This document shows, piece by piece, positions 6,770-63,943 of a stretch of 64,000 bases of DNA. This DNA comes from Caballeronia sp. LZ062 (lineage in GTDB: Bacteria > Pseudomonadota > Gammaproteobacteria > Burkholderiales > Burkholderiaceae). Every line of letters begins with the position of its first letter. Positions within the stretch are counted from its first letter, which is position 1. The notes under the pieces were generated by a model. It did no database searches, was not told the origin of the DNA, and saw only the letters and a list, made by a program, of their open reading frames with translations. Location of the stretch: NCBI RefSeq assembly GCF_031450785.1, contig NZ_JARTWB010000002.1, positions 1,488,001 to 1,552,000 of the forward strand, given 5' to 3'. The translations under genes were made by a program, and so were the position numbers.

Positions 6770-9463
6770 TTAGACGGTCATCGGATTGGGTTTGGACGGG
6801 TCGAGGTTGTACTTCTTGATCGCCTCAGCGACGACGTTACGCTCGATCGTGCCTTCGTCGGCGAGCGCGTTGAGCGCCGCCAGCGTGACCCAGTAGCGGT
6901 CGACTTCGAAGAAGTGGCGCAGCGCTTCACGCGTATCCGAGCGGCCGTAGCCGTCGGTGCCGAGCACCACGAACTTGTTCGGCACGTAGCCGCGAATCTG
7001 GTCGACGAGCGCGCGGATGTAGTCCGTCGACGCGATCACCGGACCTTGCGCACCCTTGAGCAGGTTCGTCACGTGCGGCACGCGCTTCTCTTCGGTCGGA
7101 TGCAGCAGGTTGTAGCGCTCGCACGCCTGACCTTCGCGGGCCAGTTCGGTGAAGCTCGGCACGCTCCAAAGGTCGGCGGACACGCCCCAGTCGTTCTTCA
7201 GCAGATCGGCGGCGGCGATGACTTCGTTGAAAATCGTGCCCGCGCCCATCAGCTGGACGTGCGCCTTGCCTGCGCTCTCGGCCTTGTTGAACGCGTACAT
7301 GCCCTTGATGATGTCGGCCGCAACCGACTCACCTTGCGGAATCGCCGGATGCTCGTAGTTCTCGTTCATCACGGTGATGTAGTAGTACACGTCCTCCTGC
7401 TCCTGCACCATGCGGCGCAGGCCGTCTTGCATGATGACGGCGAGTTCGTAGCCGAAGGTCGGGTCGTAGCTCACGCAGTTCGGAATCGACGCCGCCCACA
7501 GCAGCGAGTGGCCGTCTTCGTGCTGAAGCCCTTCACCGTTCAGCGTCGTGCGGCCCGCAGTGCCGCCCAGCAGGAAGCCGCGCGAACGCATGTCGCCCGC
7601 GGCCCACGCGAGGTCGCCGATGCGCTGGAAGCCGAACATCGAGTAGAAGATGTAGAACGGGATCATGATCTCGCCGTGCGTCGAGTACGACGTCGCGGCC
7701 GCGATCCAGTCACACATGCCACCGGCTTCGTTGATGCCTTCCTGCAGGATCTGACCCGTCTCCGATTCCTTGTAGAACATCAGCTGGTCGGAGTCTTCCG
7801 GAATGTACTTCTGGCCGTCCTGATTCCAGATGCCGATCTGGCGGAAGAGGCCTTCCATGCCGAAGGTACGCGACTCGTCCGGCACGATCGGCACGACGCG
7901 CTTGCCGATGGCCTTGTCCTTCAGCAGGATGTTCAGCACGCGCACGAACGCCATCGTCGTGGAGATTTCGCGGCCTTCGCCCGTGCCCTTCAGCAACGGC
8001 TCGAACGCGGACAGCGCCGGCACCGGCAGCGATTCCGCCTTTTCGCGGCGCGCCGGCAGATAGCCGCCCAGATCCATGCGCTTCTGGCGCATGTACTCGA
8101 GTTCCTTCGAGCCTTCCTCGAACGTCAGGTACGGCACGTCGACGATCTGTTCATCGGTGATCGGCAGGCGGAACTGGTCGCGGAATTTCTTCAGCGTCTC
8201 GATCGGCAGCTTCTTCTGCTGGTGCGTGATGTTCATGGCCTGACCGTGCTCGCCCATGCCATAGCCCTTGATGGTCTTGGCGAGGATGACGGTCGGCGCG
8301 CCCTTCGTCTTCGTGGCGGCGTCGAACGCGGCGTAGATCTTGTGCGGGTCGTGGCCGCCGCGGTTCAGGTTCCAGATGTCTTCATCGGACCAGTCGGCGA
8401 CGAGCGCCTTGAGTTCCGGCGTATTGAAGAAGTGCTCGCGCACGAACGCGCCCGACTCGGACTTGTACGTCTGATATTCGCCGTCCACCACTTCCATCAT
8501 GCGGCGCATCAGCGCGCCGGTCTTGTCGCGGGCGAAAAGCGCGTCCCAGCGGCTGCCCCAGATGACCTTGATGACGTTCCAGCCCGCGCCGCGGAACTCG
8601 CTTTCCAGTTCCTGGATGATCTTGCCGTTGCCGCGCACCGGGCCGTCCAGGCGCTGCAGGTTGCAGTTGATGACGAACACGAGGTTGTCCAGACGCTCGC
8701 GGCCGGCCATGCCGATCGCGCCGAGCGATTCCGGCTCATCCGTTTCGCCGTCGCCGAGGAACGCCCAGACCTTGCGGCCCTCCGTCTTCGCGATGCCGCG
8801 CGCCTGCATGTACTTCATGAAGCGCGCCTGGTAGATCGCCATGATCGGGCCGAGACCCATCGAGACGGTCGGGAACTGCCAGAAGTCCGGCATCAGCCAC
8901 GGATGCGGATACGACGAAATGCCCTCGCCGCCCACTTCCTGGCGGAAGTTGTTCAGTTGCTTCTCGGTCAGGCGCCCGAGCAGGAACGCGCGCGAGTACA
9001 CGCCCGGCGACGAGTGGCCCTGCACGAACACGAGATCGCCGCCATGCTCTTTCGAGGGCGCGTGCCAGAAGTGGTTGAAGCCGACGTCATAGAGCGTCGC
9101 GGCCGACGCGAACGAGGCGATGTGCCCGCCGACGTTCGTGTCCTTGCCCGCGCGCAGCACCATGGCGATGGCGTTCCAGCGCGTGTACGAACGGATGCGG
9201 TGCTCGATGTCCTGGTCGCCCGGAATCTTCGCCTGCGACGCGACCGGGATCGTATTGATGTACGGGGTGTTCGCCGAAAACGGCAGATGCTCGCCGTGCA
9301 CGCGAGCGAACTCGATCTGTTTTTCGATCAGGTAATGCGCGCGGTCAGGTCCGACCGCGGAAATCACGCCATCCAGTGCTTCGAGCCATTCGGCGGTTTC
9401 CTGCGGATCGTCGTCCTTGGCATTGGCGACATATTTGAGAACTTCGTCGGGTACAGCGGACAT
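6770..9463 (-). CDS. aceE: Pyruvate dehydrogenase E1 component (homodimeric type)
   Basis: An 897-residue thiamine-diphosphate enzyme that decarboxylates pyruvate and acetylates the lipoyl arms of E2. The length matches AceE (about 890 residues), and GDGETDEPES begins the ThDP-binding motif. The start is the ATG at 9463 (MSAVPDEVLKY), preceded at good spacing by AGGAGA; the open frame upstream of it is not family-like. It is the first gene of the aceE-aceF-lpdA operon, which links glycolysis to the TCA cycle. A candidate promoter lies at 9547-9576. The divergent neighbour is a membrane sensor kinase with its regulator. Confidence 0.97.
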   Translation of the reverse strand: MSAVPDEVLKYVANAKDDDPQETAEWLEALDGVISAVGPDRAHYLIEKQIEFARVHGEHLPFSANTPYINTIPVASQAKIPGDQDIEHRIRSYTRWNAIAMVLRAGKDTNVGGHIASFASAATLYDVGFNHFWHAPSKEHGGDLVFVQGHSSPGVYSRAFLLGRLTEKQLNNFRQEVGGEGISSYPHPWLMPDFWQFPTVSMGLGPIMAIYQARFMKYMQARGIAKTEGRKVWAFLGDGETDEPESLGAIGMAGRERLDNLVFVINCNLQRLDGPVRGNGKIIQELESEFRGAGWNVIKVIWGSRWDALFARDKTGALMRRMMEVVDGEYQTYKSESGAFVREHFFNTPELKALVADWSDEDIWNLNRGGHDPHKIYAAFDAATKTKGAPTVILAKTIKGYGMGEHGQAMNITHQQKKLPIETLKKFRDQFRLPITDEQIVDVPYLTFEEGSKELEYMRQKRMDLGGYLPARREKAESLPVPALSAFEPLLKGTGEGREISTTMAFVRVLNILLKDKAIGKRVVPIVPDESRTFGMEGLFRQIGIWNQDGQKYIPEDSDQLMFYKESETGQILQEGINEAGGMCDWIAAATSYSTHGEIMIPFYIFYSMFGFQRIGDLAWAAGDMRSRGFLLGGTAGRTTLNGEGLQHEDGHSLLWAASIPNCVSYDPTFGYELAVIMQDGLRRMVQEQEDVYYYITVMNENYEHPAIPQGESVAADIIKGMYAFNKAESAGKAHVQLMGAGTIFNEVIAAADLLKNDWGVSADLWSVPSFTELAREGQACERYNLLHPTEEKRVPHVTNLLKGAQGPVIASTDYIRALVDQIRGYVPNKFVVLGTDGYGRSDTREALRHFFEVDRYWVTLAALNALADEGTIERNVVAEAIKKYNLDPSKPNPMTV

Positions 9464-45200: not shown

Positions 45201-47639
45201 CGTCTCCGCGACATTCGTCGCCAGCACGATACGCCGCGCGTTCGACGGCTTGAACACGCGCTCCTGTTCCTGCGCCGAGAGACGTGCGAAGAGTGGCAGG
45301 ATTTCCGTGTGCGGCGGATGGTGCTTGCGCAACGCCTCTGCGGCGTCGCGAATCTCGCGCTCGCCGGGCAGGAACACGAGCACGTCGCCGGGACCTTCGC
45401 GGCAGAGTTCATCGACGGCATCGACGATGCCTTCCATCAGATCGCGGTCGGTCTTGCGGTCGCTTCGTTTCGCCGACGTGCCTTGCGCGTTTTTGATCGC
45501 CTCGCTTTCCTCTTCGATCGGGCGATAGCGGATTTCGACCGGATACAGCCGCCCGCTCACTTCGATCACCGGCGCGGGCTTCTCTTCACTGCCGAAGTGG
45601 CGCGCGAAACGCCCGGCGTCGATGGTCGCGGAGGTGACGATCAGCTTTAGATCCGGGCGTCTGGGCAGTATCTCTTTGAGATAGCCGAGCAGAAAGTCGA
45701 TGTTTAGGCTGCGCTCGTGCGCCTCGTCGATGATGATCGTGTCGTAGGCCTCGAGCAGCGGATCGGTCTGCGTTTCCGCGAGCAGAATGCCGTCGGTCAT
45801 CAGCTTGACGGACGCGCCGGGCGCGAGATTGTCCGTGAAGCGCACCTTGTACCCGACGACTTCGCCGAACGGCGTGCCGAGTTCTTCCGCGATGCGCCGT
45901 CCTGTCGCCGATGCCGCGATCCGGCGCGGCTGTGTATGACCGATCAAGCCTGCGCCGCCTGCGCCCAGGCCGCGTCCGAGCGCGAGACAGATTTTCGGAA
46001 GCTGCGTGGTTTTGCCGGAGCCGGTTTCGCCGCTGACGATGACAACCTGATTCGACTGAATCGCACGCGCGATCTCTTCGCGGCGGCCAGAGACGGGCAG
46101 CGCCTCGGGGAACGTGATCGGCGGGACGGGATTTGGCGTGACGGTGCGGGGGCTGTGCCGATTTCGATCGCTGCGGGGCGCGGTGTCGGCGCGGCGCGGA
46201 TCGCGCTGGGCCGGCGTTGCGCTTTGCGTCCCGGTGCGGTCGTCGCGGGCGGGGGCGGAGGTATGCGCGTGCCCGTCCGCTTTCGCGCGGCGCGCGTTGC
46301 GCTCGGATGCGCCGCCGTCCGCACGCGGCGCGGCGCTGGCTTCGCCGCCCAGCGACACCGACTTCTTGGCTGCGCTTTCCGCTTCCGTGCGGCCGTCTTG
46401 TGTGACGGTAGCCGTGTGCATGCGCCGGTCCGGTTTCGCGTGGCGCTCGTCACGCTCGGATGCGCCGCCTTCCGCACGCGGCGCGGCGTTCCCGTCGCCG
46501 CGCGGCGATGCCGACTTCTTGGTCGCGCTTTCCGCTTCCGTGCGGCCGTCTTGTGTGACGGTGGCCGTGTGCATGCGCCCGTCCGACCTCGCGCGGCGCT
46601 CGTCGTGCTCGGATGCGCCGCCGTCCGCACCCGGCGCGGCGTTCCCTTCGCCGTGCGGCGATGCCGACTTCTTGCTTGGGTTCAGCGCTTCCGTGCGGCC
46701 GCCTTGTGTGACGGTGGCCGTGTGCATGCGCCCGTCCGGTTTCGCGCGGCGCTCGTCTCGCTCAGATGCGCCGCCGTCCTCACGCGGCGCGGCGCTCGCT
46801 TCGCCGCCGGACGACAGCGGTGCGCCTTCTTGCAAATGAGCGGACGCCGCATCGCCGCCTCCGCGCCGCGGCTCTTGCTGGTGCGATTGTCCGCGTCTCA
46901 CCGGATCATCTGCCCGCGGAACAGCGGCCGTTCGTTCCGCGCGATGCGGCTTTGGCGCGCCCGACGCGTGTCGGTTCGACTGCGCCGGCATCGCGCCATC
47001 ACCTGCTTTCGTCACCGGAGCAGGCAAATCCGTACGAGTTGGCTTCGCCGCGCCCGGTCCGCGCTGAGTCGATTGTTCGGGCTTCGCGGCGGCGTCTCTG
47101 TTGGATGCGGCAGCAGCCTGTTCCGCCCGATGCGGCTTTCCAGCCGCCGCGCGCCGTTGCGGTTGCGCCGCGTTCGCGGCGTTTTCGGCGCCTCGATCAA
47201 CCGGCGACTGCGTCGCGCGGTCAGGCTTCCCCGCTTCCGATCCACGTGGGCTCGGCCGTGCGGGGTGTACTGCGTTTCCCGCGCCCGAGTGCGTCCCGCG
47301 GTGCCGTTCCGCCGCGTCCGACCTGCGCTCGCCGCTCGCGACTTGCTTTCCTGGACTCCCGTCGCCAGACGGCTTCGTCGCGCGCGCTTGATGCGCGTCA
47401 CGCGATGTCTGCGTTTGCTTCGATTCACCACGAGGACCCGCCGCTTCCTGCGCCCCAGCAAACCGCCGCGCCGCCAACTCCTTCTTGCTGAGCCCGGCTG
47501 ATTCGCCCGGCGCCTCGCTCGGCCGCGCGTCGCGCAGCAAGTTATCGCGCAGTTTCTTCAACTGCTCCTGAGCGGTGAGGGTCTTATCGGCGGATTGCGG
47601 CTGGCCCGGCTGAACGGGGCGTCTGGAAACATTCGGCAT
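42285..47639 (-). CDS. hrpA: ATP-dependent RNA helicase HrpA with very long repetitive N-terminus
   Basis: A 1784-residue DEAH-box helicase; E. coli HrpA has about 1300. The helicase core starts near residue 510: Walker A GETGSGKTTQLP, then DEAHERSLNIDFLLGYL, SATIDAGRF and the last RecA motif NQRAGRCGR. A helicase-associated region and the long HrpA-specific C-terminal domain follow. Residues 1 to about 500 are charged and disordered-looking, rich in Ala/Arg/Gly/Ser/Glu, and include four tandem copies of a 51-residue unit (46203-46808). HrpA rescues stalled ribosomes in E. coli. Its ATG at 47639 is only 22 bp from the divergent argA ATG, with a shared -10 region and little room for a leader. 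Confidence 0.95.
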   Translation of the reverse strand: MPNVSRRPVQPGQPQSADKTLTAQEQLKKLRDNLLRDARPSEAPGESAGLSKKELAARRFAGAQEAAGPRGESKQTQTSRDAHQARATKPSGDGSPGKQVASGERRSDAAERHRGTHSGAGNAVHPARPSPRGSEAGKPDRATQSPVDRGAENAANAAQPQRRAAAGKPHRAEQAAAASNRDAAAKPEQSTQRGPGAAKPTRTDLPAPVTKAGDGAMPAQSNRHASGAPKPHRAERTAAVPRADDPVRRGQSHQQEPRRGGGDAASAHLQEGAPLSSGGEASAAPREDGGASERDERRAKPDGRMHTATVTQGGRTEALNPSKKSASPHGEGNAAPGADGGASEHDERRARSDGRMHTATVTQDGRTEAESATKKSASPRGDGNAAPRAEGGASERDERHAKPDRRMHTATVTQDGRTEAESAAKKSVSLGGEASAAPRADGGASERNARRAKADGHAHTSAPARDDRTGTQSATPAQRDPRRADTAPRSDRNRHSPRTVTPNPVPPITFPEALPVSGRREEIARAIQSNQVVIVSGETGSGKTTQLPKICLALGRGLGAGGAGLIGHTQPRRIAASATGRRIAEELGTPFGEVVGYKVRFTDNLAPGASVKLMTDGILLAETQTDPLLEAYDTIIIDEAHERSLNIDFLLGYLKEILPRRPDLKLIVTSATIDAGRFARHFGSEEKPAPVIEVSGRLYPVEIRYRPIEEESEAIKNAQGTSAKRSDRKTDRDLMEGIVDAVDELCREGPGDVLVFLPGEREIRDAAEALRKHHPPHTEILPLFARLSAQEQERVFKPSNARRIVLATNVAETSLTVPGIRYVVDTGTARVKRYSYRNKVEQLQVEPVSQAAANQRAGRCGRVADGVCIRLYDEADFQSRPRFTDPEILRSSLAAVILRMKSLHLTDIETFPFIEPPPGRAIADGYQLLNELGAVDDDNALTPLGRELARLPLDPRVGRMILAARDHHALTEVLVIASALSVQDPRDRPIEAQEQADEKHRQFVDERSEFLQWTRIWKWFEEAVAHKKSNKQLADACRANFLSHVRLREWRDVHSQLLTVVREHGWRLNESDATFEQVHLSLLTGLLGNIGVKADDEPHYLGARGIKFHLWPGSALLKKAGRWVMAGELVETSRLYARTIAKIEPEWLETVGAHLLKKSLSDAHWEKKAAQVVAFERATLYGLTVYARRRVSFGKQDPKYARELFIRGALVEGEFDTRLPFFAHNRKLVADIEQLEHKSRRQDVLVDDELIYAFYDSLVPEGIWTSAAFERWYREEQKKEGRQQLLFLSRDDLMRHEAAGVTTDLFPKRMTMSGIEMTLSYHFEPGAPRDGVTLTVPLYGLNQIDARRVEWLVPGMIKEKTQLLLKSLPQKLRRHVVPLPDYAAAFAERHAGPKFGAGALIDALIADIREQTQIAVKGADFKLETLPAHLFMNFKVIDEHGRQLAMGRNLAQLRGELGGQAQQHFQKLTAQAASVALDALSGDSGDSSAPAAQAAPAESTALYENLTTWNFGKLPELLEIRRRGQTLFGYPALVDRITHCDVEVFDSPEEAARIHRAGLRRLFALQLREPIRYLEKNLPGLREMSMQYMALGTADELRDQIVETALDRACLQDPLPDDDASFHARRDAAKGRLTLLANEIARLAGTILAEYAALTKKLAQAKPFATAYADMQAQLNGLIGKRFVIDTPYAQLAHFPRYLKGIALRIDKLKADAARDARLMAELLPLAQQYQRTLSQRGGVADARLSEYRWLLEELRVSLFAQELRTPMPISVKRLHKVWESMQR
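46203..46808 (-). repeat. Four tandem 153-bp repeats inside hrpA
   Basis: Identical landmarks recur at 153-bp steps (GCCGTGTGCA at 46411, 46564 and 46717). In protein the 51-residue unit contains GGASERDERRAK, then GRMHTATVTQ.GRTEA and KKSASP; the fourth copy is more diverged. The period is a multiple of three, so copy-number change would keep the frame. Confidence 0.9.
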
Positions 47640-52759: not shown

Positions 52760-52844
52760 GCCGGGGTGATGAAATTGGTAAACATAGCGGACTTAAAATC
52801 CGCCGCCTAACGGCTTGCCGGTTCGAGTCCGGTCCCCGGCACCA
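52760..52844 (+). tRNA. tRNA-Leu (anticodon UAA)
   Basis: A complete 85-nt class II tRNA: acceptor GCCGGGG pairs with CCCCGGC, followed by A and an encoded CCA. The anticodon stem GCGGA/TCCGC has the loop CTTAAAA with anticodon TAA. There is a long variable arm (CCTAACGG region), and T arm CCGGTTCGAGTCCGG. Its 3' half is the left attachment site of the island that follows. Confidence 0.96.
52795..52844 (+). repeat. attL-like direct repeat (3' end of tRNA-Leu)
   Basis: These 50 bp, from the anticodon loop (AAAATCCGCCGCC) to the terminal CCA, recur without mismatch at 60703-60752. This is the standard sign of site-specific integration into a tRNA 3' end. Confidence 0.9.
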
Positions 52845-52996
52845 CTGTGCCAATAAGCCTTGTTGGGCTCACGGCGGTGACGCGTCAAAATGGCAGTGTG
52901 TATTTTTTGTGCCAGAGTCAATTCTGACGACACTCCTGGAGCCATCCATGTCGAGGCATCCGCGTGTCTGCGGCGGGCCGAGAACAGCACAGATGA

Positions 52997-53618
52997 ACCG
53001 CGTGCGTAGCATCCGGCGTTACATGGCGCAATATCTTATGGAAGACTGAAGCGATAGCAGACGCCGCACTACTTGGAACCATTGCTGGTGGCGTCATCGG
53101 CTTCCTCAGCGCGGCCGGAAAGGACCTACTGGACAAACAACGGAAGTCGCGCGCTCTCGCACTGTCGTTTCGAGGCGCCATCGACTCGCTCGTTGCAATC
53201 GTGGATCGTCGACAGTTTCCGGAAATGATCGAGGCCTACGCCGCAGCCGTAGAAGCGGGTCACCAAAAGCAGATTTTCAAGGTAAAGGCGTCTGCGGACG
53301 ATCAGGAGATCTACAACAAGAACGTCGGGAGACTGGGGCTCTTGCGCGGCCGACTGCCGGAATCGATACCAGCGTTCTACACGGTCACTAACTCGATGTT
53401 GGCGGACTTCGAATGTTTTTACGACGCTGTTTGGGACAAGGAGCCTAACGAGTTCTCATTCGGCTCTACCGGGACAGGGGCGGCCTCCCGAGGACGCTCG
53501 CGAATGCGCCGACGAGATAAATGCGCAAGTTAGCGAGCACTGCAGTTCTTCTTCACTGCTAGCTCGTGAGCGAGCAGTTGCCGCTTCGTTTCAACAGAAT
53601 CGTCAGGGGAGACCGTGA
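52997..53618 (+). pseudogene. Decayed small hypothetical gene in the island
   Basis: A frame open from 52997 encodes a protein-like stretch, ALLGTIAGGVIGFLSAAGKD followed by RKSRALALSFRGAIDSLV, with one membrane-type helix. However, it has no ATG until 53201, deep inside the hydrophobic and helical region. Near 53465-53480 the protein-like reading moves to another frame (PPEDARECADEINAQ) and ends at a TGA at 53616-53618. Loss of start plus one frameshift suggests a decayed gene. The family is not recognised. Confidence 0.5.
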
Positions 53619-53981
53619 TCGGTTTCACCCAGTCGCACGCCGCGCACACTTCTAACTGCTGATGTGGCCTCGGCAAAGCGTTTCGCCCGGCCCCGCCGGG
53701 CTTTTACTATTCTCCTGTGCCACCAATGCGCACGCACGCCCACAGGTGATGCGCGTTCTGGGTGCGGGCGATTGCGGCGGATGATGAGGATGATGGGAAT
53801 GCGCCGCCTCGCCTAACAATTGCGGTCAGACCGGGTGAAATCGCGCTTTCATCGCCTCGATGATTGGGCGGACGCTCAACCGGCCGAAGACGCTCGACGA
53901 CCGCATCGGCTTGAAGACCGGAGCCGATGACTCGAAAAACGACGTGTTTCTCGCGTAGTTCGACAAATCGAAGATGTCTCC
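53619..53981 (+). other. Decayed sequence between island remnants and the oxygenase gene
   Basis: About 360 bp with no intact gene. A hairpin GCCCGG (53685-53690) with CCGGGC (53696-53701) and TTTTA forms a possible terminator for the preceding remnant. A frame ending at the TAG near 53957 reads MIGRTLNRPKTLDDRIGLKT, which looks like the tail of a lost gene. Confidence 0.4.
53685..53705 (+). terminator. Rho-independent terminator after the first island remnant
   Basis: A 6-bp GC stem (53685-53690 with 53696-53701) is followed by TTTT. Confidence 0.6.
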
Positions 53982-54116
53982 ATGGGTTATCTTTCAAACT
54001 CGATGGGATACGCTCCCGCGTGTCCGTTTGCAGTGTCGAATTGGAATACGAAGATCAGCGATAAAAAGTTGCTGGCCAATTTCAGTTCTCTCACGCATTT
54101 CTTGTCTGATTTCTGA
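53982..54116 (+). CDS. Possible 44-residue small protein upstream of the oxygenase
   Basis: The frame runs from the ATG at 53982 to the TGA at 54114-54116. It starts MGYLSNSMGYAPACPFAVSN and ends LLANFSSLTHFLSDF. The stop codon overlaps the first base of the AAGGAGGG that serves the next gene. There is no clear ribosome site of its own, and the frame is open upstream to 53931 without ATG. It could be a coupled small gene, a leader peptide or the tail of a decayed gene. Confidence 0.3.
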   Translation: MGYLSNSMGYAPACPFAVSNWNTKISDKKLLANFSSLTHFLSDF

Positions 54117-54126
54117 AGGAGGGAGC

Positions 54127-54996
54127 TTGGATCCTTGGGTGTTTTCGGGACTTAAGCCAGATGACGTGGCCAGCCATCTCGATGAATTGAGTGAATGCTA
54201 TGCTGAGCATGGACTCGTCGTGATGCCGGGCCTACTCGCCGGCAATGAGGACTTTGTTCGTTACCTTGACGCAATTCGGTTCATGTTCGGCCAAATCTTC
54301 GCGCGATATGGCGAGCGTATTGCGCAAGGTGAGGATATTGGTGACATCCTTGTCAGGCTAAAACGGATTGCGCCGCTGGACGGTCGCATTGTCGCCGATA
54401 TGGGGACACAGCCGAACAAGTTCGCGGCGGGGAATCGAATTAAATTCGCCGACTTCGTCACTCGATTGCTGGAAAAAATCTTTGGCAACGATGCGGTGAT
54501 TGCAACACCCCAAGCGGGCGACACGTTGCATCTCTTCATGCCGGGGGAAGAGTTCCACCGATATAATCTGCCGATTCACCAAGACTATCAATACCTGATG
54601 CAATCTCCGCGACAAGCGACGCTTTATCTCGGGCTATCTCGTCCGTACGGAGATGCGGGGGGACTCGAGTACTGGCCGGGATCGCACAAACTTGGCGTAC
54701 TGCCTTGCGAACGAAACGAAAACGGAGCGTTCCGGGTAATGAATGGCGACGAGTTGATGAAGCAGTTCCGACACGAACGCTACTTGTGGGAAGTCGGAGA
54801 CGTATCCTTATTCGATAGTCTGATGTGTCATCGCTCCATACCGAACACCTCGGCCGATCGGGGCAGGTCAGTCCAGATCTTTCGATTCTCAGATTTGAAC
54901 AATGTGGTCGGCGAGAAGTACGACTGGCGGTCAACCATATACGAACGTCGAGGAGCGCGGTTCGAAGCTGAACACGCGGAACTCTTCAAGGAATAG
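54127..54996 (+). CDS. PhyH-family Fe(II)/2-oxoglutarate-dependent dioxygenase
   Basis: A 289-residue oxygenase of the phytanoyl-CoA dioxygenase family. The iron ligands are visible as HQD (in PIHQDYQYLMQS) and the distal His in SLMCHRSIPN, with the 2-oxoglutarate-binding Arg likely in RGRSVQIF. GGLEYWPGSHKLG is typical of PhyH. The start is a TTG at 54127, because a strong AAGGAGGG lies 5 bp before it and the protein then begins at the family-like (M)DPWVFSGLKPDD; no ATG is suitably placed. Base composition is lower in GC than in the flanking chromosome, indicating transfer. The substrate is unknown; neighbours suggest a surface-glycan or small-molecule hydroxylation. Confidence 0.8.
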   Translation: MDPWVFSGLKPDDVASHLDELSECYAEHGLVVMPGLLAGNEDFVRYLDAIRFMFGQIFARYGERIAQGEDIGDILVRLKRIAPLDGRIVADMGTQPNKFAAGNRIKFADFVTRLLEKIFGNDAVIATPQAGDTLHLFMPGEEFHRYNLPIHQDYQYLMQSPRQATLYLGLSRPYGDAGGLEYWPGSHKLGVLPCERNENGAFRVMNGDELMKQFRHERYLWEVGDVSLFDSLMCHRSIPNTSADRGRSVQIFRFSDLNNVVGEKYDWRSTIYERRGARFEAEHAELFKE

Positions 54997-55807
54997 CTGT
55001 CCCGACCGTCGGCCATGATTTGGCCGATTCCTCTCGCCTGTATTGGCCTTGCTAGCCGTTCCCGGCTTCGCTCGGTTGCACCCGCAGCGCCGGTGCCGTA
55101 TGAGTGCATGTCGAACGGCTTACCGCTCGCCGTCACTCTCCCGGCCACTTGCCGTGCGCAATCGTCCATACCACACCGGCCACTGTGAGCAACGGAGCCA
55201 AGGCCATGGCTGTGCTTCAAAGGGAGCGCGCGGTGCGCGCGAAGAACGTCGCGCTTTGCCTTGCCCGGTTGCATATGCCGACGAGCGCCCAAGTGTTCGT
55301 CTCGATGCGTCGAGACCGCTCATCGGCCGCCTTCGTCAGCGCTGTGCTCTCTTCGATCGACTCGTGGACACCGGCAAATCGGCTGTCGATCTGTGCCTGC
55401 ATATCCTCGCATCTCTGATCGTTCTTGGCGAAGCGCTCATCAATGTCGAGTTGTCGTTCTACATGCTCAGGTGGATTCAAAAAGTGGCTTCGGCAATAGA
55501 AACCCCGTACAAGGCGGGGTTTGGAGACGGATGACCGGTAATCTATTGCCATCCACCCTGCCCGCATGATCTGGTCGCGATACGCGTACCAATCACGCAG
55601 ATGGGAAGAGCGTTAGCCGATCGAACTGGCGATGCAATTCGCCGACGTTTGAGAAGTGTTGAGAAAGCCCGCTCCGGGCGAGCAGCCATGGCTCGGTCGA
55701 TCAGGCAGTTAGAATGGCAAACCGCGCAGTATTTCTCAAGTAGCAGCAAGAAACCCTGCTGCATAGGTCGGCAAGCCGCGTAGCATGCACTCAGCACATT
55801 GCACTCA
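54997..55807. other. Decayed region between the oxygenase and the GT-C-like gene
   Basis: About 800 bp without an intact gene. It includes a broken minus-strand phage-like gene (55133-55500). A GC-poorer stretch just before 55808 presumably holds the promoter for the membrane protein. The other open frames show no family-like sequence. Confidence 0.5.
55133..55500 (-). pseudogene. Frameshifted small phage-type coiled-coil membrane protein
   Basis: On the minus strand a coiled-coil stretch (DERFAKNDQRCEDMQAQIDS, then ADERSRRIETNT) is followed, in a different frame, by a hydrophobic end, ALAPLLTVAGVVWTIAHGKW, and a TGA at 55133-55135. A helical N-terminus plus one C-terminal membrane helix is common for small prophage-encoded proteins. 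At least one frameshift lies between 55190 and 55290, and no good start codon remains. Confidence 0.5.
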
Positions 55808-58030
55808 ATGCAACAATCAAATCAAACGAGTAGGAACCGTTCGTACGCATGGGTCGCATTCTTGGCGGCTCTGGCTTCCATTCTGACGCTTCTCTATGTG
55901 CTCCCCCGCGCCCCATCCGGAAATCTGACGGTCGTTGTACTGCATGATCGATCAGCACACCTGCCAAAGCTAACCATCAACCTTGATGCAGGACACGGAT
56001 TCAGGCCACGCCTTGCCTTCCCTTTTCCCTCGGGTCAGACTAGCAACATGGTCGATCTACCAGGTGCCAAGGTCGACCAGATTACCTTTGACACCGCCCC
56101 GACGAGAATCTGGCAGATAGCGAATGGCGATCCAACCTCCATCCGGTTGGTCGAATTTGATAGCGGAGCCAGGCCAAGTGCCCATGTCAAGGAAGGCGAT
56201 ACAGGCACAATTGTTCAAGCTACTGCCGCTCCAGAAAACCCATCCGGTGGAACAGCGCGCCTATTCTTCATCGCTATAAAGACGGTGACGGGCGTACGCG
56301 CCGGCTGGTCACGCGCCTACCTTCAGATTCCGTCCTGGCAGGCGCCAACCCACTCCGTGCGACGTATTGCCTTCCCAGATTTGCAGGGGCACAAGTTAGA
56401 CGTTTTCCGTCTTGCGCCTGATTCCGGGGCTTTCCTTCCGCTCGCAGAGACCGAGACTGGGGTCTACAAGTATTCATCGATTGCCGAACCTGATAGCCGG
56501 GCGGAAATCGCCCGCAAGCTCAGCACGGCAATCATGGCAGGCTGTATTGTGCTGCTTGCTCTCCCGCTCATTAAGATCAAGCAGTTGGCCAATTCCATTT
56601 TCAAGCACGCGCAGGGAGCCGCGGTCACTTCTGTCTTCTGCATTGCTGCAATCTGGTCTGCCTTCATGCTGCTATTTTCTTGGCCGACCGTTCTCGGTTG
56701 GGATGCATTTTCTCCCGTAGTACAGCATGGAAGCCCTGGAATGTCTCTCTGGTATGGCCTGGGGTATCCCCTCATCACATCGGCATCAATAAACCTAGGC
56801 GGACTAGAGGTCGCCCTTGTTCTACGCATGGTCGTTTTCTTCATTGTCCTGATATGGGTCGCCTTGACGGCGATGAAGAGCGGTTCGTCGCCTTCCATCA
56901 TCGCTGCCTGGATCTTGCTCTGTGCTGGCCTGACATCTACGTCCATAGTCGTAGTTACCGAACTACGGGACTCGGTCAACGCAATCCTGCTCACCGCCTA
57001 CAGTGTACTGGCGTACACGACCATGAGAGGCGCGCCAAAGCCTTCGTTTGCGAGCACGTTGGGGCTGGTTCTGGGAGGTTTCGCCCTTGCTTTACTGCGT
57101 GTGGACAATATTCCCTTCGTATTCGTATTGCTGGTGGGATTGGTGACACTTCAGCGTTCGTCGCGCAGCCTCCTATGCGCGCTGGCTACAGCTATGGCGT
57201 GCTTGGCAGCTAATCCGGCGTTGGAATACTACCTGTTCCGGGGGGACAGTTATGTGCAAGGCGAAAAGCGTCTCTATGAGGAAGCGGCACTGATCAACCC
57301 TCTTGTCGGATACCTGAATGCGAATTCGGTGAGCGACACCGACAAGGACGAGCTGACTCAGGTTCTAGACAATGTCATTGACGTGCCATACGCCAAAGAG
57401 CACTGGAATCCATTTGGAATTGTCTACTGGCATGAGAAAAACAAGGGGGCTCCGTCACCACAGTCCTTGTCGCAACTCAAATCAGTCTACCTCCGCATGC
57501 TGCTTCGGTATCCCGCGACATACTTGAAAATGCGAGGCGCCACCATGCTGATGCTGCTGAATGAGGAGCGTGCAGCGTTACGGCTCACCGGCGGCTTCAA
57601 GTCCGCGATGCCTACTGAAAACTACAATTTCCGCGATCACCTCTTCAGCACGAGACCTGATCATGTGCTTCTTCGCGAACTCTCGGGCCTGTCGCGCCTC
57701 GATCATCTATCGCAGAGCGCAACGAAGCGGATCATCGATTTGTACGCGTCGATCGCGACTCACCTGCCTCCGCTCATTCTGGCCGGCATCCTGGCAATGA
57801 TGACGCGCCGAATCCCGGCTACGGGAATATTGGCGCTCGCAGCTGTAACGCGCGCCGGCGTGTTCTTTCTGCTCGCGCCAGCTACCATGTTCGCGTACCT
57901 GTCAGAACTGCAACTGTTCATGATCCTGCTGCCCCTCCTGGCAATCGCAGAATGGAGGTCCCGCAACGCGCCAAACTCAATCAGCCGATCGACACAGGTT
58001 TATCCGTCCAGGCGATCGGAAATGCGTTGA
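55808..58030 (+). CDS. Large polytopic membrane protein, GT-C-like (glycan modification)
   Basis: A 740-residue protein. After one N-terminal helix (WVAFLAALASILTLLYVLP) there is a soluble, probably periplasmic domain of about 210 residues. Ten or more helices follow from residue 240, with an acidic pair in the first loop (VLGWDAFSPVVQHG), as in GT-C glycosyltransferases that use polyprenyl-phosphate sugars. A second soluble loop lies at about 480-560. I cannot assign a named family; serotype-converting glucosyltransferases and DUF6020-like proteins have similar layouts. The ATG at 55808 is used (a TTG at 55799 would add three residues). GC is low for this genome. The acyltransferase gene converges on it. 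Confidence 0.6.
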   Translation: MQQSNQTSRNRSYAWVAFLAALASILTLLYVLPRAPSGNLTVVVLHDRSAHLPKLTINLDAGHGFRPRLAFPFPSGQTSNMVDLPGAKVDQITFDTAPTRIWQIANGDPTSIRLVEFDSGARPSAHVKEGDTGTIVQATAAPENPSGGTARLFFIAIKTVTGVRAGWSRAYLQIPSWQAPTHSVRRIAFPDLQGHKLDVFRLAPDSGAFLPLAETETGVYKYSSIAEPDSRAEIARKLSTAIMAGCIVLLALPLIKIKQLANSIFKHAQGAAVTSVFCIAAIWSAFMLLFSWPTVLGWDAFSPVVQHGSPGMSLWYGLGYPLITSASINLGGLEVALVLRMVVFFIVLIWVALTAMKSGSSPSIIAAWILLCAGLTSTSIVVVTELRDSVNAILLTAYSVLAYTTMRGAPKPSFASTLGLVLGGFALALLRVDNIPFVFVLLVGLVTLQRSSRSLLCALATAMACLAANPALEYYLFRGDSYVQGEKRLYEEAALINPLVGYLNANSVSDTDKDELTQVLDNVIDVPYAKEHWNPFGIVYWHEKNKGAPSPQSLSQLKSVYLRMLLRYPATYLKMRGATMLMLLNEERAALRLTGGFKSAMPTENYNFRDHLFSTRPDHVLLRELSGLSRLDHLSQSATKRIIDLYASIATHLPPLILAGILAMMTRRIPATGILALAAVTRAGVFFLLAPATMFAYLSELQLFMILLPLLAIAEWRSRNAPNSISRSTQVYPSRRSEMR

Positions 58031-58110
58031 TGTCAACACTATTTACCGACACCGTATCGCTTCCAGGCAAGCAGGGCTCGAAAGAAGAGCCACCCGAAGG
58101 TGACTCAAAC

Positions 58111-58133
58111 AAAAAGCCGCCCGAAGGCGGCTT
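58111..58133 (-). terminator. Terminator of the acyltransferase gene
   Basis: AAGCCGCC and GGCGGCTT (58114-58121, 58126-58133) enclose CGAA. On the minus strand a T-run follows, 49 bp beyond the acyltransferase stop. A second CGAA-loop hairpin (CCACC/GGTG) lies just beside it. Confidence 0.75.
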
Positions 58134-58181
58134 ATCGCACTAACCAAGCGACACCGGATAGGCCCGCGTCGAAACTCAGGC

Positions 58182-60149
58182 CTATTTGGATGGCAGGATC
58201 TCGCCTGCCATTTTCTGTGCTACATATCGCGCCCCTGCCAAAGAGAGGTGGCCGAAATCAATCGCGGTCAGGTCAGTCGCTTGTGAGCCGACTCTAGTCA
58301 AGCAGCCGGACTGATTGCAGAGCAAGTCGAGCAGAGAAATGTACTCAACGCCGCTCGCTTTGACAGCCTCGCGAAGAAGTGGATCAAGCTCTTGCGGGCG
58401 CGGGATTCTTCCGTAGAGCATATATTGCGGAGGCGCTGGATGGCCCGGCGTATCCGTGTAGTACTTGAGCATTACGTCCTGGAGCCTGCCGTTCCACATT
58501 GGAGCCGGTCCCACGACCACAATCTTGGTGTTTGGCAGAGTCGCTTTGACCGCTCCAAGCGTTTCACCGACCTTCTCGACAATCGCCGGATACTCCATCC
58601 AATAGTCACCATGCGTCCACGCAGAAACCATAACGAGCACCTGCGGCTGCAGCTCCTTGAGCGACTCGAGCACCGATTTATTGATGTCGGCGCAGTTCTT
58701 TCGGTATTCGAAGCTGACATTCAACAACGGCGGGCACGCCGACTGAGTGAGTTGTGCAACCCCGAAGCTGTGATTCTCCTGGAGCGAATGAAGACCTTGA
58801 TAGAACGCGCCGCCGAAAGAATCGCCCCACAGCGCTACGAGAGGCCGCTGCTTCTCGATGCAGTAGGAAGGACGTGTGCTGACGCTGACTTCCTGAATAA
58901 AGCACGTACCCGATCGAACGTCCGCCTGCCATTGAAAGTCGATCGGCGTCGCGAATGGCCTCAGGTCCGCCGGCAATCTGACGAGAAATCCGTTGGACAT
59001 CACCGCTGCTCCGCTGATCGAAGCCATAACCATCATAGACGCGGCGAGACCAGACACCGCATAGCGGGGCCGGATAGAAAACCGGAGTGGCCGCTCGACG
59101 ACCTTGAATGTGAGCCAAGCGAGGATGACCGCCACGACCAGTGCGCCGCCTCGCAACCTCCAATCGGCATCAAATGTCGGAATGCGCCGCCCTAAAACAA
59201 GAAGCGGCCAGTGCCACAGATACAGCGGATAACTGATCGAGCCGATCCATACCATCGGTCGGGATCCGAGCACAAATCGGTTCAGCAACGCTTGCGGACC
59301 CGCTGCAATAACAAGGCATGCACCGACGGTTGGAAGCAACGCCCAATATCCCGGAAACGCCCTGTGCTCGTCTAGAACAACGAAACCGACTGTGAACAGA
59401 ACCAGTCCAGTCGCCCCGACAACAGTGCCGAATCGCTCTACGAGTCGGCGAGCCGAGTGCACGCTCGTCGAGGACATGAAGAACGAGAGGAGCGCCCCGA
59501 TCATCAATTCCCAGAATCTTGAGACGGGCGAATAGAATCCCGCAACCGGATCATGCATGGTAAGGGCGACACACGCGACGAATGAGAACACCGTCGCCAC
59601 GACCGCCATAACGGCGAGTCGTCGATTCCACTTCCAGACTAAGAATAAAGCCACCGGCCATACCACGTAGAACTGCTCTTCGATCGCCAACGACCAAAGG
59701 TGCAGGAACGGCTTCGTGACAGATGCAGCATCGAAGTATCCTGCTTGGTGCCACAGAACGAAGTTCGATACAAAGGCCGCTCCAGCCAGCATCTCTGTGC
59801 CGAACTGAATAAAGTCCTGCGGCAACAGCATGGTCCAAGCAGCAACGAAGCTAGCCAGGAAAACAACAATGAGAGCCGGAAAGATTCGGCGGATTCGACG
59901 CGAATAGAATTCCGTGATACTGAAGCGGTTCAATTCCAATGACCCGACGAGGATTGTCGTAATCAGGAACCCCGAGATCACAAAGAAGATATCGACGCCG
60001 ATGAATCCACCGGGTAACAAGCTGGGGAAAGCATGAAAAAGCAACACTGAGGCAACGGCGATAGCACGCAACCCGTCAATGTCCTTTCGATACGCCGGAT
60101 GGCCGTCGTTCAAAAGCGGACGGCTTAACTTCTTGATCTCGTTCTTCAT
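58182..60149 (-). CDS. OafA-type acyltransferase with C-terminal SGNH domain
   Basis: A 655-residue inner-membrane acyltransferase (acyltransferase-3 family) fused to a periplasmic SGNH hydrolase-like domain, the layout of O-antigen O-acetylases such as OafA. The AT3 part (about 20-370) starts with YRKDIDGLRAIAVASVLLFH and has FFVISGFLIT, FYSRRIRRIFPAL and the catalytic-type SLAIEEQFYVVWP. The SGNH part (about 420-655) has ALWGDSFGGA (Ser), VVGPAPMW and DFGHLSLAGARYVA (Asp/His). It would O-acylate a surface polysaccharide. GC is lower than in the flanks. It converges on the GT-C-like gene and has its own terminator. Confidence 0.92.
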   Translation of the reverse strand: MKNEIKKLSRPLLNDGHPAYRKDIDGLRAIAVASVLLFHAFPSLLPGGFIGVDIFFVISGFLITTILVGSLELNRFSITEFYSRRIRRIFPALIVVFLASFVAAWTMLLPQDFIQFGTEMLAGAAFVSNFVLWHQAGYFDAASVTKPFLHLWSLAIEEQFYVVWPVALFLVWKWNRRLAVMAVVATVFSFVACVALTMHDPVAGFYSPVSRFWELMIGALLSFFMSSTSVHSARRLVERFGTVVGATGLVLFTVGFVVLDEHRAFPGYWALLPTVGACLVIAAGPQALLNRFVLGSRPMVWIGSISYPLYLWHWPLLVLGRRIPTFDADWRLRGGALVVAVILAWLTFKVVERPLRFSIRPRYAVSGLAASMMVMASISGAAVMSNGFLVRLPADLRPFATPIDFQWQADVRSGTCFIQEVSVSTRPSYCIEKQRPLVALWGDSFGGAFYQGLHSLQENHSFGVAQLTQSACPPLLNVSFEYRKNCADINKSVLESLKELQPQVLVMVSAWTHGDYWMEYPAIVEKVGETLGAVKATLPNTKIVVVGPAPMWNGRLQDVMLKYYTDTPGHPAPPQYMLYGRIPRPQELDPLLREAVKASGVEYISLLDLLCNQSGCLTRVGSQATDLTAIDFGHLSLAGARYVAQKMAGEILPSK

Positions 60150-60363
60150 TTCGCGTCAAGCCGGAGCTAAGGGTGATATCGAACGCGCCATTATAGGCGC
60201 TCTCGCATAAGCCCCCCGAACGACATCAGCTTACTTAGTGCACCAGTTTCGCAATCGGGGTGCGGCTCTTTTACCTTTGCCGACGGGCGCGTCCGGCACT
60301 CAGCACCGCCCGCCTTAGGTACTGTTTCCATTGCTCTGAAAGCACCACTTTCGAGCGGTAGCC
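60150..60363. other. Intergenic region upstream of the acyltransferase gene
   Basis: About 214 bp that should contain the acyltransferase promoter. I see no gene or clear consensus element in it. Confidence 0.3.
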
Positions 60364-60681
60364 TCACCGATATCTATTGCGTCTCGCAGCGGAGCAATCA
60401 CCGCACGCCTGGGCGAGTACCACGTTACGCGTCGCGGTGTTCTCCGCGAGCACTGCGGTCGCAGACTTCGGAGGCTCAATGCACTCCAAGAATGACGTTC
60501 CGTCGTAGACCATTCCTGCGACTACGTTGTCGTCGCATTGAACCAGCGACTGGCGGAACTCTCCGGTGAAGCGCCCTTCGATAGGAACCTCGTTCCGGTC
60601 ATCGCCCAGCATCGGCTCGATGATCTCCATGAGCCGGTCTTCATTCAGATACCGTGTAAGCCCAGCGCAACAACTGTTCAT
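60364..60681 (-). CDS. Hypothetical protein at the right end of the island
   Basis: A 105-residue open frame on the minus strand starting 21 bp inside the right repeat. The sequence is protein-like (DRLMEIIEPMLGDDRNEVPI, then FRQSLVQCDDNVVAGMVYDG) with six cysteines. It has no signal peptide or known motif, and no clear ribosome site. It may be real or the stub of a gene lost at the island border. Confidence 0.4.
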   Translation of the reverse strand: MNSCCAGLTRYLNEDRLMEIIEPMLGDDRNEVPIEGRFTGEFRQSLVQCDDNVVAGMVYDGTSFLECIEPPKSATAVLAENTATRNVVLAQACGDCSAARRNRYR

Positions 60682-60702
60682 GCATAGAGTGCGTTGAGAC
60701 CG

Positions 60703-60752
60703 AAAATCCGCCGCCTAACGGCTTGCCGGTTCGAGTCCGGTCCCCGGCACCA
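60703..60752 (+). repeat. attR-like direct repeat (copy of tRNA-Leu 3' end)
   Basis: A perfect 50-bp copy of 52795-52844. No tRNA 5' half precedes it, so it is the attachment-site remnant and not a second tRNA gene. Confidence 0.9.
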
Positions 60753-60916
60753 GGTGTGAACCGCGTATTCGTTGCACGAACTCTTCACGGCGGCATCAGC
60801 ACAGACTGCGGCGCTCATCGAGCAGTCCGCACGCGGCGGCGAGTTATTTAGCATCCCTCATGCTTGGATGCACGCCAAAGTCCCTGCCCGCATCAAGCGC
60901 TACAGCCCATGCTCCA
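60753..60916. other. Non-coding stretch beyond the island
   Basis: Chromosomal sequence returning to high GC, with only short open frames and no family-like sequence. Confidence 0.3.
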
Positions 60917-63096: not shown

Positions 63097-63943
63097 GGAA
63101 AGCCGCATACGTTCGCGTGGATTCGAGCGGCGGTGCATCGCGAATGACGTCCGCGACAAGTGAGTCAAGCCGCATGTGCACGCTCGCATCTGCGTCGAAC
63201 TGCGGCTGATTCACGGTCGGACCCGCCGAGTCCTGAAAGCGCAGCGGCCACGCGTCCGCTCAAGCCGCAGCTGCTCGAAGATGAGGTCCGCGAGAAGCGC
63301 GACGAGCGTTACATCGACGCAAGCCCGAACCCTTTCCTCGCGAATCAGACGGCCCGCGCCCTGCTTCAGCGCGATGACCGCCTGCGGCAACTGACGCACG
63401 GGAACGGCTGCAACTCGCGCGCACGTCGCACGAGCGCCTGAAGCGATTCCGCCCGCTGGGCATGACCACAACGCGGCCGCGAGCGCATCGGAGAGCGGAT
63501 GCCCGTCCGGAAGCGCGTGGTTCCGCGCGAATCAGACGGCCCGCGCCCTGCTTCAGCGCGATGACCGCCTGCGGCAACTGATGCACGGCGAACGGGATGC
63601 AACTCGCGCGCACGTCGCACGAGCGCCTGAAGCGATTCCGCCCGCTGGGCATGTGACCACAACGCGGCCGCGAGCGACTCGAAGAGCGGATGCCCGTCCG
63701 GAATCGCGTGGAAGCGAAGTCGGTCAACGCGTTTCCGCCAGCCTGCGGCAGCGATCTCACCGCGTACGGCTTTCGTGTCTACGAGCAGAGCAACGCGATG
63801 TTCGTGCCGGGCGATTTTGCTTGCGGCGTCGTCGCGCGAATCGAAAGCGAGCTAAACCGAAACGGTACGCGTAGACCGGCGGTCGATCGCCTATACGCAC
63901 CCCGACGAATCAGCCAACCCGCCGCAGGCACGACGCCACACGC
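63097..63943 (-). pseudogene. Degenerate region with helicase-like remnants
   Basis: About 850 bp without an intact gene. On the minus strand HQLPQAVIALKQGAGRLIR (near 63526-63590) and a second copy RQLPQAVIALKQGAGRLIR (near 63340-63400) match the conserved motif VI region of DinG/YoaA-type helicases. They are embedded in frameshifted sequence, with HAQRAESLQALVRRAREL before each. The rest of a helicase (Walker A, DEAH) is absent. It is a remnant, made of two tandem copies of one segment. Confidence 0.5.
63339..63712. repeat. Two diverged tandem copies of a 187-bp segment
   Basis: Matching landmarks lie 187 bp apart: CGAATCAGACGGCCCGCGCC at 63341 and 63528, and AGCGGATGCCCGTCCGGAA in both copies. 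The copies differ by small substitutions and short indels, so the duplication is not very recent. Confidence 0.75.

Follow-up and report, generated by a model that had tools for sequence, protein, structure and literature searches.

A tRNA-Leu(UAA) island without an integrase in Caballeronia sp. LZ062: a probable phage relic with putative surface-glycan modification genes

In Salmonella, islands of the SPI-16 and SPI-17 type (SPI, Salmonella pathogenicity island) lie beside tRNA genes, are stably maintained and are described as phage-derived (PMC3688519). SPI-16 is reported to occupy a tRNA-Arg site with direct repeats and to carry gtr operons, the same site being taken in some serovars by a complete prophage or a sizeable phage remnant (PMC3688519), while SPI-17 is presented as a prophage remnant with O-antigen conversion genes (PMC5770046) that contains oafB (PMC10655114). 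Here we describe an island of comparable position in a 64,000-nt stretch of Caballeronia sp. LZ062 (below, "the window", whose positions are used throughout; NCBI RefSeq contig NZ_JARTWB010000002.1, 1,488,001–1,552,000). It is inserted at a tRNA-Leu(UAA) gene between perfect copies of the 3' end of this gene, and its tRNA end contains an attachment (att) signature that also occurs in a prophage at the same tRNA of a related genome. We conclude that it is probably the relic of a temperate phage or phage-derived element, which would have been integrated by a tyrosine integrase of the type encoded by that prophage and would have kept its conversion cargo.

The cores of attL and attR are identical in 50 of 50 nt, and the repeat can be extended to 55 nt (96%, two mismatches). 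They enclose 7,858 bp (7.9 kb) with a guanine-cytosine (GC) content of 0.560, compared with 0.644 for the rest of the window; the lowest value among 225 stretches of island length stepped through positions 1–52700 was 0.626. When the upstream flank was used as query, 60 of 61 genomes matched (the LZ062 genome counted among the 61). The closest relative besides LZ062 itself was G012 (92% by this flank; G-codes denote genomes, P- and L-codes proteins and loci). It contains a single copy of the core, identical to that of the window in 49 of 50 nt, and outside the core it matches the sequence beyond attR (86% over 87 bp including the core). Window positions 60790–60897 could not be aligned to G012 and are about 63 bp longer than their counterpart; from position 60898 the outer flank is collinear again, for 2.2 kb at 85%. 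The tRNA-Leu locus of G012 is an empty site, so that insertion at a tRNA gene, flanking direct repeats and the empty site of a relative are all found together. A preliminary description of this DNA, made from its letters alone, had reported the perfect 50-bp repeat and the 7.9 kb of lower GC content, had concluded that a site-specific island lies at tRNA-Leu, and had named the comparison with an empty site as a check; these claims held, G012 having one core copy between collinear outer flanks.

The same locus was fetched from 17 of the 36 matching genomes of the genus, where some stretches may not reach a distant second att site. In the window, GTGTGTATTTTT is located 51 nt from the core, inside the tRNA end. 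Two of the 17 loci have a counterpart at the same distance of 51 nt, namely GTGTGCATTTTT in G009 and the variant ACGTGCATTTT in G001. In the other 15 loci, TGTGYATTTTT (at most one mismatch) was not found at that place, and vaguely similar strings were seen near the expected position in G027 and G002. If two mismatches are allowed, the consensus GTGTGNNTTTTTYTG matches at two places in the window, of which only the arm-type site of Table 1 lies in the island. The pattern of core, 38–66 nt and GTGTGNNTTTTT has a single occurrence in the window and was absent from 100 shuffles.

The pattern of core and arm was revealed in seven of 2.9 million IMG/VR contigs, with gaps of 50, 51, 51, 53, 51, 51 and 50 nt. 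Six of these seven contain a PF00589 integrase, and the same six had already turned up separately in a homology search with the G009 integrase, which detected 26 contigs in total. The seventh (L164) has no integrase in its 24 kb and, as its sequence reads, appears to be a chromosome–prophage junction at the same tRNA, adjoining the same phosphodiesterase-type gene. The attL end bears the mark of one particular family of temperate-phage integrases, with GTGTGNNTTTTTCTG as the putative arm site; the case for a phage origin is made by this signature, common to the G009 prophage and seven viral contigs. An apparent attP, in the order integrase, arm, core, about 51 nt and arm, was seen in L074, L075 and L076. 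In L072, L077, L083 and L084 the integrase is located on the opposite side of the core, and for this reason it is not certain on which side of the core the window element once had its integrase. Of the 26 contigs, several break off at the integrase with no visible att site, and in some others, e.g., L080, L085 and L086, the integrase (68–69% identical to that of G009 in these three) adjoins other att sequences. The integrase family is therefore not bound to tRNA-Leu, and its members appear to have switched their target tRNA.

A second copy of the core was found in two of the 17 loci, again G009 and G001; in G016 there is a 38-bp tRNA fragment 1.3 kb away (89%). The core copies of G009 bound a 46-kb contractile-tail prophage, with an integrase directly inside attR, genes for terminase, portal, major head, tail sheath, tape measure, baseplate, tail fibre and endolysin, and a gene for an AT3 acyltransferase of 385 aa near attL. 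All ten proteins chosen from this prophage match PHROGs, and for eight of them, besides lysis and portal genes, the best PHROG has a known function in integration, head, tail or O-acetyl transfer. A second exact copy of the arm lies beside the integrase gene near attR, and a copy with one mismatch in the prophage interior. The island thus resembles the G009 prophage and the related IMG/VR viruses in the attachment core, the arm-type site and its spacing, and the prophage also in having an AT3 gene. It differs from the prophage, whose 46 kb include genes for integrase, head, tail and lysis and whose acyltransferase, with its 385 aa, has no room for the SGNH fusion of the island protein.

The opposite end of the island is less distinctive. 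The inner 46 nt at attR are identical to those of G009 at 30 of 46 positions in register, a value reached by none of 20,000 random 46-mers of the window (best 24), the region having been picked after the alignment was seen. No arm site with up to three mismatches was found within 600 nt of attR. The genome contains seven PF00589 matches, none of them in the island, and a tblastn search with 14 integrases gave nothing better than E 0.025 there, so that a decayed integrase still in place was rejected. The integrase has been lost and is not visibly decayed. In this respect the preliminary description was right that there is no integrase, while its view that decayed genes beside the att site occupy the place of one found no detectable counterpart. 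A relative of the G009 integrase is absent from the LZ062 genome at E ≤ 1e-20 and present in two of 58 genomes of the genus. Since there is no integrase, no arm at attR and no relative of the integrase in the genome, self-excision is unlikely and excision in trans doubtful.

As we see it, a temperate phage or phage-derived element would have entered tRNA-Leu(UAA) by means of an integrase of the G009 type, and a later deletion, perhaps ending about 45 bp inside attR, would have removed the integrase, the second arm site and the virion genes. What was kept would be a cargo of the lysogenic-conversion type, i.e., an OafB-type acetyltransferase, a PhyH hydroxylase and a rare membrane protein. The island would once have been a full prophage.

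A number of observations weigh against this interpretation. The phage origin is visible in the ends of the island alone; no virion gene is left, and phage structural genes are not recognisable, the three ORF (open reading frame) fragments having no Pfam match and no or a weak PHROG match. In free local alignment over 300 nt, the right inner end scores 24 against G009, within the range of shuffles (maximum 27, n = 200), and the left inner end 27, weakly above a shuffle maximum of 24; against G001 both inner ends stay within chance, while the right ends of G009 and G001 resemble each other (80 vs 24). Two of the three cargo genes, those for the PhyH protein and the 743-aa membrane protein, have no shown phage carriage: neither has a match in 50,697 phage records, the membrane protein has no relative among the IMG/VR viral contigs, and the PhyH protein has a single one (L094, 46%), surrounded by sugar-type genes as read from its ORFs. 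The idea that the cargo as a whole consists of phage genes was rejected on these grounds. Finally, contig 2898242259_000001 (L086/L125), the sole virus contig that combines a related integrase (69% identical to that of G009) with a relative of the island's AT3-SGNH protein, has a different att site, which by its sequence does not appear to be tRNA-Leu. The free alignment of the right end and the other att site of this virus lowered our confidence in the phage relic slightly.

Clearly less probable is that the cargo accumulated at a tRNA hotspot as successive inserts recombined with each other, the att ends coming from an older prophage remnant and the cargo arriving later and independently of phages; as regards the origin of the att ends, it overlaps with the phage relic. 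Four of the 17 relatives hold other glycan genes at this tRNA. No second core copy is present in the fetched stretches of G004 (L033), with an AT3 gene, of G014 (L029/L030), with an exopolysaccharide (EPS)-type cluster of a glycosyltransferase, a MurJ-type flippase, a Wzc-type protein and AT3, or of G023 (L032), with PMT_2; the insert contents were judged from ten ORFs chosen from four genomes. Such a build-up would also agree with the 1.8-kb att-bounded remnant in G001 (L031, 4185–6017) and with the absence of PhyH and the membrane protein from named phages, and of the latter also from viral contigs. The G001 remnant contains phage-type arm sites and is perhaps a further stage of decay of the same element family. 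The AT3-SGNH protein, however, belongs to a phage family of O-antigen acetylases, and AT3 genes are present in five of the 19 viral records of the integrase family that were searched (19 of the 26 found). Two of these five have the tRNA-Leu core (L075, L084), two are cut off at the integrase (L069, L082), and the fifth, L086, has its other att site.

It is improbable that the island is a mobilisable cassette without integrase, similar to a cis-mobilizable element (CIME) or a phage satellite, for whose excision and transfer in trans a superinfecting phage still supplies the same integrase. The perfect core copies and the left arm site would suit such a cassette, as would viral contigs with a cognate-type integrase and an apparent attP. 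In addition, an ORF of the island, the left fragment (P0123), is also found on another contig of 7,918 nt, which is about the size of the island and near 7,858 + 60; this contig may be an excised circle or reflect an assembly that broke at repeats. A CIME would require that both att ends carry the sites for a partner integrase, which would need two arm sites; a second one was not found within 600 nt of attR at up to three mismatches. The rarity of G009-integrase relatives, in LZ062 itself and among the 58 genomes, also speaks against it, and no packaging, replication or regulatory family was found among the island ORFs scanned (six by Pfam, seven by PHROGs). Mobilisation in trans, offered as an option in the preliminary description, is conceivable and has gained no support from these data. 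The view that the repeat was duplicated by chance or in the assembly, and that the low-GC block has nothing to do with integration, can practically be set aside, since the cores are identical in all 50 nt, G012 has an empty site and the attachment signature is present, while nothing was found in favour of it.

Table 1. Features of the island and its ends (window positions).
Feature	Position	Strand	Remarks
tRNA-Leu(UAA) gene	52760..52844	+	ARAGORN, tRNA-Leu(taa); the 3' 50 nt (52795–52844) form the attL core
Putative arm-type integrase site GTGTGTATTTTTTGT	52896..52910	+	51 nt inside attL
ORF fragment, 157-aa frame	53060..53533	+	No family assigned
PhyH-family Fe(II)/2-oxoglutarate oxygenase, 289 aa	54127..54996	+	PF05721, E 6.9e-10
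ORF fragment	55217..55567	-	Weak PHROG 6701 (unknown function), E 5.8e-4
743-aa membrane protein, rarely found family	55799..58030	+	Open ORF, no Pfam at E ≤ 0.01
AT3-SGNH acyltransferase, OafB / O-antigen acetylase type, 655 aa	58182..60149	-	PF01757, PF19040, PHROG 6705
ORF fragment adjoining attR	60364..60681	-	Weak PHROG 14370 (unknown), E 0.0099
Inner end at attR	60657..60702	+	Resembles the G009 prophage end in register
attR core	60703..60752	+	Perfect 50-nt copy of the tRNA-Leu(UAA) 3' end

The acyltransferase of the cargo has an AT3 domain (PF01757, residues 22–347) fused at the C-terminal side to an SGNH domain (PF19040, 428–647), and it falls into a known family of O-antigen modification, PHROG 6705 (O-antigen acetylase), with E 7e-167. 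In total 85 phage records match it, the gtrC/oac proteins of the Salmonella phages BTP1 and SPC32H with 36% identity over 97%, and relatives are encoded at 63 viral loci. The SGNH domain matches PDB entry 6se1 (E 5.9e-33), and the catalytic Ser, Asp and His are present, in GDS at 442 and DFGH at 631, aligned with 6se1. At E ≤ 1e-60, matches were found in 22 of 58 genomes of the genus, LZ062 included, with a best identity elsewhere of 43% (G034) and none in G012; a further relative (41%) is encoded on a different replicon of LZ062. Family II GtrC, renamed OafB, is described in the cited passages as acetylating O-antigen rhamnose (PMC7448272, PMC10655114). The island protein shares with OafB (BTP1 gtrC) the fusion of AT3 to SGNH, the match to 6se1 and the GDS and DxxH motifs, but is only 36% identical to it. 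The host region described below encodes an RmlB-type dTDP-glucose 4,6-dehydratase, which is consistent, and no more, with rhamnose as acceptor. The island protein would O-acetylate the O-antigen of the host or a related glycan.

The 743-aa membrane protein has no family in Pfam or NCBIfam; at E ≤ 10 Pfam returned only weak unrelated matches (best 0.024), a PDB profile search with its family gave two matches at E about 0.09, taken as chance, and a single-sequence fold was a useless model (mean predicted local distance difference test, pLDDT, of 39). Ten hydrophobic segments were counted by a simple scale. They would fit an enzyme with a glycosyltransferase C (GT-C) fold or one of polymerase type, as candidate classes only. 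An Asp (302) after Trp295-Pro296 is invariant in four sequences. The family was found in two of 150 genomes of the taxonomic family and two of 369 of the class, LZ062 being counted in both. Within LZ062 there is a 1,116-aa paralogue with 34% identity (L056:10037-13387), compared with which the island copy is shorter on the N-terminal side by about 200–330 residues, according to where L056 truly begins. Other relatives are a 996-aa protein in G185 (L057), P0002, from a search in which scoring was confined to the 7,998 candidates with the most words in common, and one protein in G619.

As read from the ORFs, L057 lies among glycosyltransferase-type genes and the G619 copy does not. The neighbours of L056 encode glycosyltransferase, NTP transferase and GT2 domains, and its region (G000:C2:358500-412000) also contains genes for a dTDP-glucose dehydratase (rmlB), a Wzt-type ABC ATPase, AT3, GtrA and GtrB-like, WecA-like and PseB/FnlA-like proteins; we infer that it is an O-antigen-type cluster. 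The island protein could then be a transferase or polymerase that transfers or joins units of the host glycan.

In the PhyH protein, translation probably starts at a TTG behind AAGGAGG. Residues H151, D153, H235 and R247 are invariant in 20 aligned sequences and form an HxD...H triad followed by an Arg, which we take to be the metal triad (H151, D153, H235) and the distal Arg. A protein search gave 128 proteins including itself, the best other at 74%, and the nearest solved relative is distant, 1-deoxypentalenic acid 11-beta hydroxylase (profile E 3.9e-8). At E ≤ 1e-40 it was found among 399 Burkholderiales genomes in LZ062 only, a sample that misses some carriers, as a homologue with 70.5% identity on a plasmid of Caballeronia NK8 shows. 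Nonsynonymous differences between these two copies are far rarer than synonymous ones (pN 0.159, pS 0.868, 289 codons; a single pairwise comparison with saturated pS), as would be expected for a gene under purifying selection. In Methylobacterium (L062), Methylorubrum (L063) and Kiloniellaceae (L064), a methyltransferase-type gene lies just upstream of the PhyH relative; that of L062, the one of the three scanned, is a TylF gene (PF05711, E 6e-8). Such a partner gene was not detectable in the window, nor does it accompany the PhyH gene on the NK8 plasmid, where no glycan-synthesis cluster is annotated beside it and glycosidase genes lie about 5.5 kb away. A conserved glycan operon including PhyH was rejected, the alphaproteobacterial partner being missing in both places. 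The PhyH protein might hydroxylate the same host glycan. Literature matches for PhyH together with O-antigen and glycosyltransferases were few, among them a list of biofilm mutants (PMC3130047), and PhyH was absent from the 10 listed of 61 further matches.

The closest known systems remain SPI-16 and SPI-17, compared here with respect to site, repeats and cargo. Like them, the island lies beside a tRNA gene and appears phage-derived; it shares direct repeats and a prophage at the same locus elsewhere with SPI-16, and an acyltransferase related to the oafB family with SPI-17. It differs from SPI-16 in its site, tRNA-Leu instead of tRNA-Arg, and from both in its extra PhyH oxygenase and unrelated membrane protein and in having no gtrA or gtrB among the six island ORFs scanned by Pfam. 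Instead, GtrA and a GtrB-like protein are encoded in the O-antigen-type cluster of the host. For Salmonella, the possibility has been raised that family II operons whose gtrB is deleted rely on another gtr operon (PMC3688519), and the GtrA/GtrB-like functions of the LZ062 cluster could in a similar way serve the island in trans.

Because of the lack of GtrA and GtrB, we do not file the element as a gtr island of the SPI-16 subtype; it looks like a member of a broader known kind, the phage-derived islands of surface-glycan modification. CIMEs are att-bounded cargo with no recombinase of their own, which holds for the island too, but it shows no sign of mobilisation and its ends are of phage type, not those of an integrative and conjugative element (ICE). 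A further analogy may be the seroconversion module of Pseudomonas phage D3, which consists of an O-acetylase and an O-antigen polymerase.

Of the earlier interpretation, the island, the surface-glycan type of its cargo and the missing integrase stand; the phage signature, the 46-kb prophage that another species has at the same tRNA, with an AT3 acyltransferase of its own, and the known kind to which the island belongs had not been foreseen. The domain matches agree with the PhyH-type oxygenase and AT3-SGNH acyltransferase that it named, and an open 743-aa frame with the "740-residue GT-C-like" protein, whose GT-C assignment was not confirmed, with no family in Pfam or NCBIfam and a predicted fold of low confidence. 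It was also correct in treating the oxygenase and membrane-protein part as unfamiliar: this part is unusual, and no description of hydroxylation in phage conversion was found among the literature matches listed. We suggest that the three genes together may alter the O-antigen or another surface glycan. More speculatively, and with the odds clearly against it, they could form a new seroconversion cassette lacking gtrABC, in which a variant of the host's rare 1,116-aa O-antigen-cluster membrane enzyme competes with that enzyme and, joined by an acetylase and by a hydroxylase acting on sugar or acyl groups, rewrites the glycan.

The remaining ORFs of the island are fragments. The left one gave no Pfam or PHROG family (53201–53533), no NCBIfam family and no relative in viral contigs (53060–53533), and a protein search detected only an identical 102-aa protein; the fragment at 55217–55567 also has no relative in viral contigs. 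At the DNA level, the island matched phages and plasmids only in short acyltransferase stretches and the NK8 PhyH gene (on the plasmid side, among the best 20 of 36 matches), and tblastx matches to other loci, apart from those at the att ends and in the membrane protein, were chance-like and discarded. It should be noted that the window contains two tandem repeats outside the island. One (63334–63711) has two copies of a unit of about 187 nt (94% matches) within an apparent helicase-type gene of the minus strand, towards its 3' end, where copy spacings of 187–191 nt would break the frame; in the other (46271–46808), a 153-nt unit of 51 codons is present in 3.5 copies (87% matches), in a stretch with a GC content of 0.72 and an adenine-thymine skew of -0.46.

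The attachment signature, i.e., the tRNA-Leu core followed after about 51 nt by GTGTGNNTTTTT, can be used to seek similar relics. The PhyH-type oxygenase and the rare membrane protein are candidates for new glycan-modifying enzymes. Our results suggest that the path known from Salmonella, in which a temperate phage that has entered a tRNA gene sheds the genes for its virion and its integration and leaves surface-glycan genes behind, may have been taken in a Burkholderiaceae host too.

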